Assembly (NCBI GenBank): GCA_003023565.1
Contig: PXSA01000007.1
Span: forward strand, 1 to 64,000
DNA: 64,000 nucleotides
Direction: 5' to 3'
Origin: Halobacteriales archaeon QS_9_68_17
GTDB taxonomy: Archaea; Halobacteriota; Halobacteria; Halobacteriales; Natronoarchaeaceae
This document shows, one piece after another, positions 33,052-39,161 of the stretch. Below the pieces are notes generated by a model, which did no database searches, was not told where the DNA came from, and worked only from the letters and a program-made list of their open reading frames with translations. A program made the position numbers and the translations under genes. Every line of letters starts with the position of its first letter. Position 1 is the first letter of the stretch.

Positions 33052-34524
33052 TCAGCTGTCGAACCGAGCCTGCACGAACGGCTGAACGTCCTCGATGTCG
33101 CCGAGGCGGGAGTCCGAGAGGAGGACGGCCTCGGTCTCGTCGATGGGGACCGAGAGGCTGATCTCCTTGGTGCGGCCGTAACGCCCCTTGCTGACGACGG
33201 CCGCGTTCACGATGCCCAGCATGTCGAGTTCGCTGATGAGGTCGGTGACGCGGCGCTGGGTGAGCACGTCGGCGTCGATCTCCTCGCAGAGGCGTTTGTA
33301 GATGTTGTACACTTCGCCCGTGTTGACGTTGTGGACGCCGTTTTTCTCCAGAAGGATGATCGAGAAGAGGACGATCTTCGACTGCGTCGGGAGGGTGCGG
33401 ACGACCTCGACCACGCGGTCGAGTTCGATCTTGTCCTGTGCCTTGCGGACGTGGTCTTCGTCGATGACCTCGGCCCGGTCGCGCTCCGCGAGTTCGCCGG
33501 CGGTGCGAAGCAGGTCGAGCGCGCGGCGGGCGTCGCCGTGTTCCTGCGCGGCGAACGCGGCACAGAGCGGGATCACGTCGTCGGTCAGTGCGTCCGGCTT
33601 GAACGCGACGTCCGAACGGTGCTGGAGGATGTCGCGCAGTTGGTTCGCGTCGTAGGGTGGGAAGACGATCTCCTCCTCCCCGAGGCTGGACTTGACGCGG
33701 GGGTCGAGGAAATCGGTGAACTTCAGGTCGTTCGAGATGCCCATGATCGAGACCCGCGAGTTCGCGAGTTCCGAGTTCATCCGCGAGAGGTTGTAGAGGG
33801 TGTCATCGCCCGACTTCTCGACGAGCTTGTCGATCTCGTCGAGCATGATCACGACCACCCGCTCGTGGTAGTCGACCGCGTCGAAGAAGACGCTGTACAC
33901 GCGGTCGGTCGGCCACCCCGTCATCGGGACGGTCTCGAAGTCGTCTCTGTCCGCTTCGAGTTCGGCGACGCGGTCGTCGACGGCCTCGACGGAGTCGTAC
34001 TCCGCGTCGTCGAGCGCCGACTCGCGCAGTTCGCGCAGGTCCGCGAGCCACTCGTCGATGAGTCGCTCGTTCTCCTCGATGAACTTGTTCGCCAGTTGTG
34101 CGAGGACGCGGTACTGGGTGTCGGTCACCTCGCAGTTGATGTACTCGACCTCACAGGGGACTCTGTACTTCTGGGACGTGCTCTCCAGTTCCTGGCTGAC
34201 GAACTTCGCGCTCGCGGTCTTGCCGGTCCCGGTCTTCCCGTAGATAAGGATGTTCGACGGCGTCTCCCCGCGGAGCGCGGCGACGAGTATCGTCGCCATC
34301 TTGTTGATCTGTTCCTTGCGATGCGGGAGCTCGTGCGGCGTGTACGACGGCCGCAACACCTCCTTGTTCTCGAAGATAGGCTCGCCGCTCAGCAGGTCGT
34401 CGAACAGACCCTGACTCTCCTCCGTGTCGTCCTCCAGCACCACGTCGTCGAGGTCGACGTCGAAGTCCTGAGACGAGTCTACACGCCCCGACGGTTCGCC
34501 GGTTCCCGAATCCTCGTTGGACAT
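33052..34524 (-). CDS. orc1: Origin recognition protein Orc1/Cdc6
   Basis: 490 residues. Initiator that binds ORB repeats and loads MCM. AAA+ motifs: Walker A GKTGTGKT at residues 96-103, Walker B VVIMLDEIDKLV near 220, sensor 1 MGISNDLKFT and sensor 2 HGDARRALDLLRTAGELAE. A winged-helix DNA-binding domain occupies the last 100 residues (ILLEKNGVHNVNTGEVY, QRRVTDLISELDMLG). The acidic N-terminal 50 residues are haloarchaeal. It faces away from the ORB-rich intergenic region, the standard arrangement at haloarchaeal origins, and an ORB overlaps its own promoter. Confidence 0.96.
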   Translation of the reverse strand: MSNEDSGTGEPSGRVDSSQDFDVDLDDVVLEDDTEESQGLFDDLLSGEPIFENKEVLRPSYTPHELPHRKEQINKMATILVAALRGETPSNILIYGKTGTGKTASAKFVSQELESTSQKYRVPCEVEYINCEVTDTQYRVLAQLANKFIEENERLIDEWLADLRELRESALDDAEYDSVEAVDDRVAELEADRDDFETVPMTGWPTDRVYSVFFDAVDYHERVVVIMLDEIDKLVEKSGDDTLYNLSRMNSELANSRVSIMGISNDLKFTDFLDPRVKSSLGEEEIVFPPYDANQLRDILQHRSDVAFKPDALTDDVIPLCAAFAAQEHGDARRALDLLRTAGELAERDRAEVIDEDHVRKAQDKIELDRVVEVVRTLPTQSKIVLFSIILLEKNGVHNVNTGEVYNIYKRLCEEIDADVLTQRRVTDLISELDMLGIVNAAVVSKGRYGRTKEISLSVPIDETEAVLLSDSRLGDIEDVQPFVQARFDS

Positions 34525-34564: not shown

Positions 34565-35106
34565 CGCCACGGAAAGAGAACGTCTCCGACGTGATAGGCT
34601 CAGATGCCGGATCCGATGGTGAACCGATCCCGTGGTTCGTCCAGTTGATGCAAACGAAGCAGAGGTGCACCAGGGTCTTAAAATCTTCCCTCCCGGTCAC
34701 GATCCGTCCATCCAACACGGGAAACAAGGTGCTTCAGGCATCCTGTTCCCACTTTTCGGGGACATAGGAAGGGAGAGCCGTCTTCCGTCAGGGCACCCTG
34801 TCCGGCAGCCGCATCCCTCGCAGTCGCCGTTCATACCGTCTCGCGGACGAGCATACGGTAGATCCAGGACTCCGCCTGGCGGACATGACCGGCGAACGTA
34901 CACGAACCGCCGTCGACCGGAAACGACGGTCGGTCGTGTTCGAACGGATATGGAGGCGACGCTTACGCGCTATGGACGGACCCTGCAGGGTCGAACTAGA
35001 GACACTTTCGCCGGGTCGTTTCCGGTCGAGGATACCGAACGTTCGACGATATCCACGGCGGACGGGACAGCACCGTGCTCACAGCTGTCAGCGAGTCTTC
35101 GTGACG

Positions 35107-35191: not shown

Positions 35192-35223
35192 CCCTCCCCC
35201 ACCCCTTCGTTTCGAGTGGAACC
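35192..35223 (-). promoter_or_regulatory. ORB1 of oriC
   Basis: On the minus strand GGTTCCACTCGAAACGAAGG followed by GGTGGGGGAGGGG. Core plus long G-string, inverted with respect to ORB2; the G-string points away from the AT-rich segment. Confidence 0.85.
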
Positions 35224-35299
35224 GGGCGAACCGGGGGTGGACGGGTGGGGAAACCGCCGAGCGAGAGTCGAAGCCGGATCGATCGGCGGATCTCTAGCG

Positions 35300-35400
35300 G
35301 TTCCTAATTGATATTTTCACAGCTGATGTTTTCTAGAAAAGGGGTCGTCCCTAGTACAGTTACTGTTATATGCTCTATTACATAAAGGCTTCTGTTCTAG
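35300..35400. other. AT-rich candidate DNA unwinding element
   Basis: The only markedly AT-rich 100 bp of the intergenic region (for example TTCCTAATTGATATTTTCAC and TACTGTTATATGCTCTATTA), placed between the two inverted strong ORBs. Confidence 0.65.
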
Positions 35401-35432
35401 GAGGGCGATACCCCCCTCCCCCGGGGTTCTCG

Positions 35433-35462
35433 CGTTCCACCCGAAACGAAGGGGTGGGGGGG
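35433..35462 (+). promoter_or_regulatory. ORB2 of oriC
   Basis: CGTTCCACCCGAAACGAAGG followed by GGTGGGGGGG. Differs from ORB1 at one core position and points the opposite way. Confidence 0.85.
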
Positions 35463-35939: not shown

Positions 35940-37985
35940 ATGGGACTGATAAACGGACTCAGAGAAAGTATCTCTCGAGTTACGGACAGGCTTTTTGCGG
36001 AAGACGAACAGAAACGGATCGGTATTTACGGCCCGCCGAACGCGGGGAAGTGCCTCGCGTCCGGTGAGGAAGTTCTCCTCGCCGATGGGACGTATAAACC
36101 GATCCAAGACGTGTTCAAACACGTCGCGGAATCATGTCCGGGCGCGACGGACGTCAGCGACGAACCGGACGAGACGTGGCTCGAATGTCGAGATTCGGGT
36201 ATCGAAGTCCCGGCGCTATCGAACGAGCTTTCGACGGGGAGTAGACGAGTATCACACGTGTTCCGCCAGCGATACAGCGGAACGATGTACCGCGTACGAA
36301 CTCGACTGGGCCGGGAAGTGACCGTTAGCCCCGACCACCCGTTCGTTTCGGTAACGGAGAACGGCATCGAACACGTGCCGGCGTCGGAGGTATCGGAGGG
36401 ACAGTCCGTTGCAACGCTTTCATCGTTCACGCCCGAAACGACGGACTGGACGGTAGGCGAGTCGAAGACGTTGAGCGCGGACGGTGGACAGGTCGTCCAC
36501 GAGTCGACTCACCACGGTCCGAAGCCGATCACACCGCTGTCGCTCGACCGGGACGTCGCCCGATTTCTGGCGTTGACGATAGCGGAGGCACAGCACGAGA
36601 ACGAGTTCATCGCGTTCGCGAACGAAGACGAAACGCTCCGAGAGGAGTTCGCCGCCACCGCGGCTCGGTTCGGGGTAGACACTACGCACGCGTGCGAGAA
36701 CGAAACCCCGACCGTCCGCGTCGACAGTCGTCCCCTGGTCGAACACCTGAAGCGTCTCGACTGTCCGCCGGCGGAGTCCACTGAAAAGGCGATCCCCGAC
36801 TCTATTCTCACCGACGACGACGAGACGGTTCGTGCGTTCCTCCGGGCTATATTCGGTCGTGAGGGGAGTGTTCAGGGTGCAGACGACGAACGCGGTCGCT
36901 ACGTGACGCTGTCGAGCGCGAGTCGAGAACTCGTCGACGGGATCCAGATACTCCTCTATCGGTTCGGGATCGTAGGAAAGGTCCGACAGGAGAGTCACGA
37001 CGGACGCACGTACTACGAACTCCGCATTGACCGGAGTGACCAGCACCGTCGGTTCCGAGAGCACATCGGCTTCGACGCTGCACGCAAGGCAGAGAAACTC
37101 GACACGCTCTGTGAAGCCGGGTCGAAGGCGAACGTTCACACGCTTCCGATCATGCCGGCGCTCGAATCGAGTCGCGACCGGCTGGGAATGACCCGGAAGG
37201 AGTTCTACGGGGACGACGAACACGTCGCTCGGATGCGACGGCGAAACAGCATCACGATGGACCGCATCGAGTCGATGGCCGGCGGTCTTCCCGAGCGAGA
37301 GGAGACCGAACTGGTACACCGACTCGCGGACGGGGATGTCGTCTGGGACGAAGTCGTTGAGGTCGAGGTGGTCGACTACGACGGGTACATCTACGACCTC
37401 ACTGTCGAGGAGGACCACACGTTCGCGACGCGAGACGGTCTCGTTGTCCACAATACGACGCTCGCGAACCGCATCGCGCGGGACTGGACCGGCGACGCCG
37501 TCGGACCGGAGAGCCACATTCCACACGAAACGCGGCGCGCACGCCGGAAAGAAGACGTCGAGATCAAGCGCAACGGCAAGGCGGTGACGATAGACATCGT
37601 CGACACGCCGGGCGTGACGACGAAGGTCGACTACGAGGAGTTCACCGAGTTCGACATGGAGAAAGACGACGCCGTCAGGCGTTCCCGCGAGGCGACAGAG
37701 GGCGTCGCCGAGGCCATGCACTGGCTCCGCGAGGACGTTGACGGCGTCATCTACGTGCTCGACTCCACCGAGGACCCGTTCACGCAGGTGAACACGATGC
37801 TCATCGGCATCATCGAGAGCCGGGACCTCCCGGTGCTCATCTTCGCCAACAAGACCGACCTCGACGACTCCAGCGAACAGCAGATCAAGAACGCCTTCCC
37901 CCAGCACGAGACGATCCCGCTCTCGGCGCTGGAAGGTGACAACATGGACGAAGTGTACGACAAGATCGCGGAGTACTTCGGGTGA
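35940..37985 (+). CDS. oapA: Origin-associated GTPase OapA (Era-like), interrupted by an intein
   Basis: 681-residue precursor. The N-extein (residues 1-37) ends in the P-loop start GIYGPPNAGK; the C-extein resumes TTLANRIARDWTGDA and carries the G3 motif DTPGV, G4 NKTD and a terminal SALEGDN loop, giving a spliced GTPase of 213 residues, the normal size. Start ATG 35940 gives the family N-terminus MGLINGLRESISRVTDRLF. With orc1 and the downstream oapB and oapC this is the conserved haloarchaeal origin neighbourhood. The molecular role of OapA is unknown to me. Five bases separate it from oapB, so oapABC is an operon. Confidence 0.93.
   Translation: MGLINGLRESISRVTDRLFAEDEQKRIGIYGPPNAGKCLASGEEVLLADGTYKPIQDVFKHVAESCPGATDVSDEPDETWLECRDSGIEVPALSNELSTGSRRVSHVFRQRYSGTMYRVRTRLGREVTVSPDHPFVSVTENGIEHVPASEVSEGQSVATLSSFTPETTDWTVGESKTLSADGGQVVHESTHHGPKPITPLSLDRDVARFLALTIAEAQHENEFIAFANEDETLREEFAATAARFGVDTTHACENETPTVRVDSRPLVEHLKRLDCPPAESTEKAIPDSILTDDDETVRAFLRAIFGREGSVQGADDERGRYVTLSSASRELVDGIQILLYRFGIVGKVRQESHDGRTYYELRIDRSDQHRRFREHIGFDAARKAEKLDTLCEAGSKANVHTLPIMPALESSRDRLGMTRKEFYGDDEHVARMRRRNSITMDRIESMAGGLPEREETELVHRLADGDVVWDEVVEVEVVDYDGYIYDLTVEEDHTFATRDGLVVHNTTLANRIARDWTGDAVGPESHIPHETRRARRKEDVEIKRNGKAVTIDIVDTPGVTTKVDYEEFTEFDMEKDDAVRRSREATEGVAEAMHWLREDVDGVIYVLDSTEDPFTQVNTMLIGIIESRDLPVLIFANKTDLDDSSEQQIKNAFPQHETIPLSALEGDNMDEVYDKIAEYFG
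36051..37454 (+). other. Intein in the OapA P-loop (468 residues)
   Basis: Inserted between Lys37 and the following Thr of GPPNAGK/TTL. Block A begins CLASGEEVLLADGTYK, block B is REVTVSPDHPFVSV, and the C-terminal splice motifs are GYIYDLTVEEDHTFAT and GLVVHN, followed by Thr as the +1 nucleophile. The middle (about intein residues 160-330) is a LAGLIDADG-type endonuclease: FLALTIAEAQ and, about 105 residues later, FLRAIFGREGSV, each with Glu at the position usually occupied by the catalytic Asp, so activity is uncertain. Self-splicing residues are complete. Its third-position GC looks lower than in the exteins. Confidence 0.93.
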
Positions 37986-37989
37986 TACG

Positions 37990-38373
37990 ATGCCGGAAAC
38001 CAAAGATCCGGACGACGGCGTTCAGATAGACCTCATCAGCGGCGAGCGGATGGCCGGGATGGCGAGCATGGAGAAGATCCGGATGATCCTGGACGGCGTC
38101 CACGACGGGAACATCGTGATCCTCGAGGAGGGGCTCTCCCCCGACGAGGAGAGCCGCCTCATCGAGGTGACCATGACCGAGATCAGTCCGGACGGGTTCA
38201 ACGGCATCGAGATCGAGACCTACCCGCGCGCCCAGACCGACGATTCCAGCTTTCTCGACCGGCTGATGGGTCGCGAGTCGACCAACAAGCTCACCGTCAT
38301 CGGTCCGGCGAACCAGATCGAGACGCTCCACAAGGACGAGACGCTCATCAGCGCGCTCGTCTCCCGCCGATAA
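37990..38373 (+). CDS. oapB: Origin-associated protein OapB (DUF2073)
   Basis: 127 residues, beginning MPETKDPDDGVQIDLISGER, with the family core MASMEKIRMILDGVHDGNIV and LEEGLSPDEESRLIEVTM, and KLTVIGPANQIETLHKDE near the end. DUF2073 proteins accompany the OapA GTPase throughout haloarchaea and some methanogens; the function is unknown. Overlaps oapC by one base (TAATG). Confidence 0.9.
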   Translation: MPETKDPDDGVQIDLISGERMAGMASMEKIRMILDGVHDGNIVILEEGLSPDEESRLIEVTMTEISPDGFNGIEIETYPRAQTDDSSFLDRLMGRESTNKLTVIGPANQIETLHKDETLISALVSRR

Positions 38374-39161
38374 TGCCCCACCAATGCACGAACTGCGGTC
38401 GGACGTTCGTCGACGGCTCCAAGGAGATGCTGTCGGGCTGTCCGGACTGCGGCGGCAACAAGTTCCAGTTCGAACCCTCCGGTCGGTCCGGGAGTTCCGA
38501 GAGCGACGGCGCACCCGAAACGGAGGCGTCGTCCCCGAGCACACCTGAAGCCGGCTCCACCGGGGGCAGTTCGAGCGGCGCGACGACGAGCGCCGCGGCG
38601 CGCGACCGTGCGCAGTCTTCGGCTGACGCGGACGGGGTCGCGGGCAGGGTCAACCGGGCGCGCGAGACCGTTCGGGACTGGGTCGGGACCGACCGGTCGA
38701 CCGACGACCGGTCCACCCAGTCGACCGAGGACCGGCCGACCGCGGACGCCGCGGCGTCGGGAACCGCGGGCAGTTCGTCGGAGGGGTCCGCCGAGCCTCC
38801 GGACCCGACGACGGCCGCGACCCCCGATCAGGAGAACTCCGCGCAGGCGAACGCACGGAGCGACGTCGTCTCCCGGGACGAACTCCCGGACGACCCGCCG
38901 GAACCCCCTCGCGAACCCGCGGCCGGCGAGGGAGCTCGCGTCGTCGACGAACCGGACGACACCGACGAGGACCGTCCGGACCTCTCGGAGCTCCGGGAGG
39001 AACTCAACAACCAGTTCGAGAGCATCAAGATCGTTCAGCCCGGGCAGTACGAACTCAACCTGATGGAACTGTACGACCGGGACGAGTACATCATCTCGCT
39101 CAAGGAGGACGGACGCTACGTGATCGAGGTCCCCGAGTCCTGGCGTTCCCCCGACGAGTGA
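38373..39161 (+). CDS. oapC: Origin-associated zinc-ribbon protein OapC
   Basis: 262 residues. An N-terminal zinc ribbon (MPHQCTNCGRTFVDGSKEM, then CPDCGGNKF) is joined by a 150-residue low-complexity acidic linker to a conserved C-terminal domain LREELNNQFESIKIVQPGQY followed by LNLMELYDRDEYIISLKEDG. Last gene of the origin operon. Probably an adaptor binding nucleic acid or a partner; unproven. Confidence 0.88.
   Translation: MPHQCTNCGRTFVDGSKEMLSGCPDCGGNKFQFEPSGRSGSSESDGAPETEASSPSTPEAGSTGGSSSGATTSAAARDRAQSSADADGVAGRVNRARETVRDWVGTDRSTDDRSTQSTEDRPTADAAASGTAGSSSEGSAEPPDPTTAATPDQENSAQANARSDVVSRDELPDDPPEPPREPAAGEGARVVDEPDDTDEDRPDLSELREELNNQFESIKIVQPGQYELNLMELYDRDEYIISLKEDGRYVIEVPESWRSPDE

Follow-up and report, generated by a model that had tools for sequence, protein, structure and literature searches.

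A LAGLIDADG intein in the P-loop of the haloarchaeal vesiculating GTPase OapA/ArvA

Can a GTPase work when 468 residues stand between the lysine of its P-loop and the threonine that should follow it? The question is raised by the oapA (arvA) gene of Halobacteriales archaeon QS_9_68_17 (genome G000 in our surveys), which lies in the window, that is, the whole 64,000-nucleotide stretch of contig PXSA01000007.1 analysed here. A preliminary description took the central part of this gene for an intein that must leave the protein before GTP can be bound and, the gene being the first beside the chromosomal origin, suggested that splicing could gate an origin-linked GTPase. The relevant features are:

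33052..34524, minus strand: orc1/cdc6, on the far side of the origin region (Pfam Cdc6_C 1.9e-33, Cdc6_lid 8.7e-31)
35196..35460, no strand: ORB-like inverted repeat, arms 35196-35246 and 35410-35460, 51 nt each, 76% complementary
35940..37985, plus strand: oapA/arvA frame with intein, 681-aa precursor, stop at 37985
35940..36050, plus strand: N-extein, 37 aa, its C-terminal GPPNAGK forming the first part of the P-loop
36051..37454, plus strand: intein, 1404 bp, 468 aa, in frame; Cys1-Leu ... His467-Asn468, +1 Thr
36051..36431, plus strand: N-terminal half of the splicing (HINT) domain, residues ~1-127 (TIGR01445 match at 1-99; conserved alignment block)
36543..37085, plus strand: homing-endonuclease region, residues ~165-345 (PF14528 at 258-340)
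37338..37454, plus strand: C-terminal half of the splicing domain, residues ~430-468 (TIGR01443 at 446-468; alignment)
37455..37985, plus strand: C-extein, 176 aa, starting TTL
37990..38373, plus strand: oapB/arvB (PF09846 OapB, 7.6e-43)
38373..39161, plus strand: oapC/arvC (PF09845 OapC, 1.9e-26)

We set the start of oapA at ATG 35940 rather than at GTG 35925, as given in the open reading frame list, because homologues start with MGL or MGF. The insert matches the Pfam model Intein_splicing (2.1e-26, residues 8-468), the NCBIfam models intein_Nterm (1.6e-13) and intein_Cterm (6.1e-06) and, between the two splicing halves, the homing-endonuclease model LAGLIDADG_3 (PF14528; 3.1e-20, residues 258-340). 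The limits first proposed for this 468-residue intein, 36051-37454, are right to the base. Its removal in silico yields a protein of 213 aa, the length foreseen for the spliced product, in which GPPNAGKTTL is intact, and this bears out an insertion exactly between Lys and Thr of GPPNAGK/TTL. The splicing landmarks named earlier (Cys1, SPDH, the terminal HN and the +1 Thr) are all found. The block at the histidine reads V-S-P-D-H, with Ser at a position where Thr is commoner in inteins, and S93-P94-x-H96-P97-F98 is identical across all 14 aligned OapA intein copies. Two LAGLIDADG-like motifs, assigned by eye, read FLALTIAEA and FLRAIFGREG. Both contain a Glu, at what we take to be the catalytic position; the second reads F-G-R-E-G versus D-C-E-G in 9/9 other full-length copies. 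The gene is uninterrupted in four genomes of the same genus (92-98% identity), and GPPNAGKTTL is present in 36/36 extracted intein-free orthologues, for which the search pattern required GKTT[LM] and all 36 loci tried matched. Since 14 homologous inserts occupy an identical bond, chance is excluded. The insert is an intein, as surely as a sequence can tell, and its splicing is predicted.

The fold agrees with this assignment. In an AlphaFold model of the intein, built from 14 copies, the splicing halves reach a pLDDT of 85-95 (residues 1-120 for the N-terminal blocks), the pTM is 0.42 and confidence is low at residues 125-183 and 391-414. Rows 1-27 of the Foldseek search are all inteins (TliVMA, PI-PfuI, PI-PkoII, PI-SceI, CDC21, RadA and others), the best being TliVMA (7qss, 4.2e-25) and PI-PfuI (1dq3, 5.4e-21); the rows that follow are chiefly I-DmoI-type homing endonucleases, plus more inteins. 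The CDC21 mini-inteins 6rpp/6rpq superpose on the model at 2.4-2.5 Å. Whole-length Foldseek superposition is poor (TM ~0.3, rmsd ~17 Å or more) and single domains superpose well. A phmmer comparison of the window intein with 7qss gives 2.2e-22. In a model of the precursor the intein is again confident, and the GTPase parts mostly fall below a pLDDT of 50-60, which makes that model uninformative on GTP binding.

How often does this insertion recur? A survey of 391 haloarchaeal genomes with the spliced OapA as query found oapA in 390; G314 gave no oapA match. We opened 22 genomes, namely every one whose best E was weaker than 1e-112, plus G000, G304 and G314; for the other class genomes absence was read from how strong the full-length match was, among the matches listed, together with the intein profile. 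The check proposed earlier, of haloarchaeal OapA orthologues for inteins at this site, gives a positive answer: an intein lies at exactly K/T in 14/391 class genomes, over nine genus codes and five family codes, and an intein profile search of the same 391 genomes, in which four candidates per genome were scored, picks the same 14. Named records gave 15 loci, nine identical to inteins of the class survey and six additional, for 20 copies in total; these loci include Natronosalvus hydrolyticus, Halomarina halobia, Natronomonas aquatica, Halocatena marina, Halocatena pleomorpha and Actinarchaeum halophilum. Every one of the 20 copies reads GPPNAGK/C...HN/TTLA, with no internal stop. The intein is absent from 376 of the 390 oapA-bearing class genomes, so the central sequence is not a normal OapA domain of the orthologues, as it might have been; in the window's own genus it occurs in one genome of five. 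No insert elsewhere in OapA was seen among the 22 opened genomes.

In a set of 294 genomes drawn from the phylum, which also contained members of the class, full-precursor matches were obtained only for G000 and G046 among the matches listed; the list is sorted by score, and an unlisted genome could hold a strongly diverged intein. Long frames of G002 and G443 from the phylum search were considered as carriers and rejected, both being intein-free. Viral contigs gave 11 pattern matches, with no relative among them. In G332 (L082), oapA is split over two frames matching residues 1-70 and 45-213, a frameshift or assembly error. Endonuclease-free OapA inteins are found in the Actinarchaeum/Halocatena group (L074-L077, L097, L099), in 4/4 class genomes of genus g65 and in strains YIM A00010 and YIM A00013; according to the available text of PMC10067837, this group includes haloarchaea with hyphae and spores.

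The 20 copies group together, apart from the MCM Walker-A inteins. In an intein tree (quick method, no bootstrap), 20/20 OapA inteins fall into one clade (SH-aLRT 100) and 17/17 MCM-a inteins into another (SH-aLRT 99); the sister of the OapA clade is left unsettled by the long branches of SpoVR, MCM-b, MCM-c, RFC-a and VMA. Profile bit scores are 814-879 for full-length OapA inteins, 171-222 for short ones and 148-174 for the non-OapA matches opened; they do not separate the groups by themselves, the short OapA copies overlapping the best MCM-a (174). The 17 opened non-OapA matches comprise 16 MCM Walker-A inteins and a single RFC Walker-A intein, and all non-OapA matches at E up to 1e-33 lie in frames of >1000 aa. 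MCM-a (CDC21-a; GDPGTGK/SQ) also interrupts the bond after the P-loop Lys, and 12 of its 16 opened copies measure 466-473 aa, but its host is the replicative helicase, its +1 residue is Ser, and the OapA inteins group apart from this allele. RFC-a (GPAGVGK/TTA; the G359 match, 152 bits) shares the Walker A position but has 652 aa and a long branch outside the OapA clade. The archaeal IF-2 intein (NCBIfam PRK14845.1) likewise has a GTPase host and follows the P-loop Lys (GHVDHGK/T), and PRK14845.1 matches residues 1-395 of the window OapA intein (5.8e-32); this host, however, is a translation factor and not a small vesicle GTPase. The intein-free IF-2 of the window's genome matches PRK14845.1 to position 23 and then from 475. 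Insertion into the P-loop of a GTPase is therefore already known from the IF-2 inteins. The P-loop inteins of archaeal VMA (A/V-ATP synthase subunit A) include TliVMA 7qss, the solved structure that comes closest in both sequence and fold, though in another host and at 23% identity; the available text of PMC10643990 places VMA-b at the same Walker A position as MCM-a. The earlier remark on P-loop insertions of inteins in ATPases agrees with K/S or K/T being a known intein address (MCM-a, VMA-b and, in a GTPase, IF-2).

The endonuclease is present in 10/20 copies (466-482 aa) and absent from the other ten (183-275 aa; G277 keeps a remnant). It has been lost repeatedly: parsimony on the splicing-domain tree gives three changes of state (bootstrap 3-5; well-supported branches force two). 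Compared with the intein of QS_4_66_20, that of SW_7_65_23 lacks 801 bp of endonuclease sequence, cleanly deleted in frame (breakpoint located by direct scan), and five substitutions separate the two. These near-identical inteins (L094:2637-3233 and L079:1818-3215) offer a snapshot of endonuclease loss. Intein dN/dS is 0.00-0.22 in 8/8 related pairs tested, and in four full-length pairs, three of them drawn from one trio, it is 0.105-0.177 for the splicing part and 0.094-0.182 for the endonuclease part. The intein is thus under purifying selection in related pairs, which do not include the window copy because the window intein has no close intein-bearing relative. Over 180 columns the window endonuclease has 8 private changes and each of the nine others 0-6. 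Two of the 8 fall in its second LAGLIDADG motif, so the window endonuclease may be weakened; we rejected the view that it is clearly dead, the excess being too mild.

Four-fold degenerate sites were used as a guide to mobility, with p values uncorrected and sites not strictly independent. In G046/G283, where the endonuclease is present, the intein is identical at 180/228 of these sites, the exteins at 57/96 (Fisher p 0.0005) and oapB at 23/51. An intein more alike than its flanks is a signal of mobility; G254/G283 duplicates this comparison and is not independent. The signal is not general among pairs: the full-length pairs G046/G254 and G220/G381 show no intein-extein difference, and in two endonuclease-free pairs the intein is less alike than the exteins (80/108 vs 90/100; 51/98 vs 79/105), as for vertical descent. 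In G381/L094 the intein (117/119) exceeds the exteins (90/102), but oapB is also more alike (51/54) and orc1 is not (124/179), so the pair is ambiguous and does not point to transfer of the intein by itself. Co-conversion of the N-extein, as imported DNA, was considered from its third-position GC of 0.57 versus 0.90 in the C-extein, and was rejected, as the empty sister gene of G325 has 0.62.

The host was correctly named as OapA. It matches the GTPase models MMR_HSR1 (Pfam) and, just below its cut-off, small_GTP (NCBIfam); the C-extein contains the GTPase motifs DTPG, NKTD and SAL. Its orthologues and the gene order arvA-B-C agree: oapB and oapC follow oapA at its 3' side in the window and in 19/19 other carriers (three with partial oapC), and C-extein identity to the window is 86-90% in 17 of these 19, with 85% and 79% in the remaining two. 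A place beside the origin is also supported, in so far as the gene adjoins orc1/cdc6 and the ORB-like inverted repeat at 35196-35460, whose arms we take to be origin recognition boxes. The origin region also has a perfect 15-nt inverted repeat, TCGACCGGAAACGAC, at 34913-35029 of the window. The available text of PMC10927574 renames OapA as ArvA, the archaeal vesiculating GTPase: knock-out of oapA in Haloferax volcanii lowers extracellular vesicles ~2.9-fold, over-expression leads to hypervesiculation, and the protein could not be given a distinct function in replication.

Based on the above data, we propose that the insert is very probably a full-length LAGLIDADG intein of a haloarchaeal allele (OapA-a/ArvA-a) on the oapA/arvA P-loop, one that splices to yield the 213-aa GTPase and homes or once homed. 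The gene would be translated as a 681-aa precursor with the P-loop Lys and Thr 468 residues apart, which for that reason should not bind Mg-GTP; the early claim that GTP binding is impossible before splicing would follow from this split motif. Self-excision of the splicing domain, through the chemistry of Cys1, Asn468 and the +1 Thr, would then join GPPNAGK to TTL and release the vesiculating GTPase. The endonuclease is expected to cut, or to have once cut, intein-free oapA at the conserved P-loop sequence, and repair of the break by copying would install the intein. Endonucleases would be lost over time, with splicing-only mini-inteins persisting.

Other readings of the locus must be weighed against this life cycle. 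An ordinary domain of OapA, specific to certain lineages and never removed, would fit the single open frame that the central region forms with the host, but is hardly credible beside the matches to intein splicing models, the solved intein folds, the split P-loop, the same terminal catalytic residues in 20/20 copies and the empty gene in 376 of 390 genomes. The initial idea of a gate on an origin-linked, replication-related GTPase draws on the position of oapA next to orc1 and the ORB-like repeat, and orc1 indeed adjoins oapA in 15/20 carriers (the window and 14 of the 19 others). Here we depart from the preliminary description and judge such a gate very improbable: the known function of the host is vesicle formation and a replication role is not assigned (PMC10927574, available text), orc1 also adjoins oapA in 4/4 intein-free loci of the same genus, and it was not found within ~4 kb upstream of oapA in four carriers (G046, G254, G283 and G359), so the intein is not tied to the origin; in carrier G388 the contig end is too near for orc1 to be placed. 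Because OapA is ArvA and a replication role is not established, splicing would gate vesicle formation rather than the origin.

A conditional splicing switch, in which dependence of splicing on salt, temperature or redox state would set the level of active vesiculating GTPase and account for the retention of the intein, fits the persistence of ten endonuclease-free copies, including those of 4/4 class genomes of g65 (Halocatena/Actinarchaeum group). A Cys at intein position 46 in 18/20 copies is a possible redox partner, and the available text of PMC10663303 reviews a salt-dependent haloarchaeal intein and RadA inteins dependent on temperature or ssDNA. We nevertheless consider this switch unlikely. 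Mini-inteins should be retained under purifying selection even if they regulate nothing, since losing an intein takes an exact deletion or replacement of the allele (PMC4071816, available text); intein dN/dS exceeds that of the extein in 7/8 pairs (0.10-0.22 vs 0.015-0.092), the eighth being a near-identical pair with an intein dN of 0; and the 376 intein-free class genomes manage without it. A domesticated form, in which precursor would accumulate in one condition and active ArvA be released in another, regulating vesicle (and RNA) export, is a long shot, and would be most likely where an endonuclease-free copy is fixed, as in the Actinarchaeum/Halocatena group, some members of which form hyphae. 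Such a gate could be proposed for any P-loop intein.

Taken as an intein that very probably splices and homes or once homed, the insert represents a familiar type of element at a new host site. No report of an intein in OapA/ArvA was found in the open-licence literature searched, in keeping with the preliminary description: the word 'intein' is absent from the available main text of the ArvA paper (PMC10927574), and the available text of PMC9425974 names inteins in DnaB only. In Soucy et al. 2014, 13 haloarchaeal genes hold 24 intein alleles, which have the same life cycle, with large, mini and empty alleles coexisting in one class, but oapA is not in Table 1 (PMC4071816, available part). OapA/ArvA thus carries a genuine intein allele that is apparently unreported. 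The haloarchaeal intein list gains a host gene with a vesicle role, outside DNA and nucleotide metabolism, and the 20 copies form a one-site series of the intein life cycle: full-length, partly eroded, freshly deleted and long-held mini. Surveys relying on normal protein length would miss or mis-size intein-bearing OapA/ArvA; in the available text of PMC10927574, ArvA reference sequences are limited to <250 aa. As an H. volcanii OapA knock-out strain exists (same source), the system is easy to test.

Other inteins are present in the same genome. The A/V-type ATP synthase subunit A (L139, G000:C20:91500-98500; ATP-synt_ab 8.2e-62) has a 523-aa P-loop intein, GPFGSGK/C...HN/TVT, and this host is likewise not in Table 1 of PMC4071816, as available. 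A SpoVR-family protein (L140, G000:C32:86000-93000) carries a 395-aa intein, NEGWA/C...HN/SYW; the sequence that follows the insert matches Pfam SpoVR (9.1e-9) and SpoVR_C (7.4e-9). Intein-like matches also occur in frames of 1994 aa (G000:C34) and 605 aa (G000:C36). MCM (L141, G000:C41:39000-48000) has three inteins. Its Walker A site holds a mini-intein of 174 aa; the MCM of G325, from the same genus, has a full 470-aa intein there.
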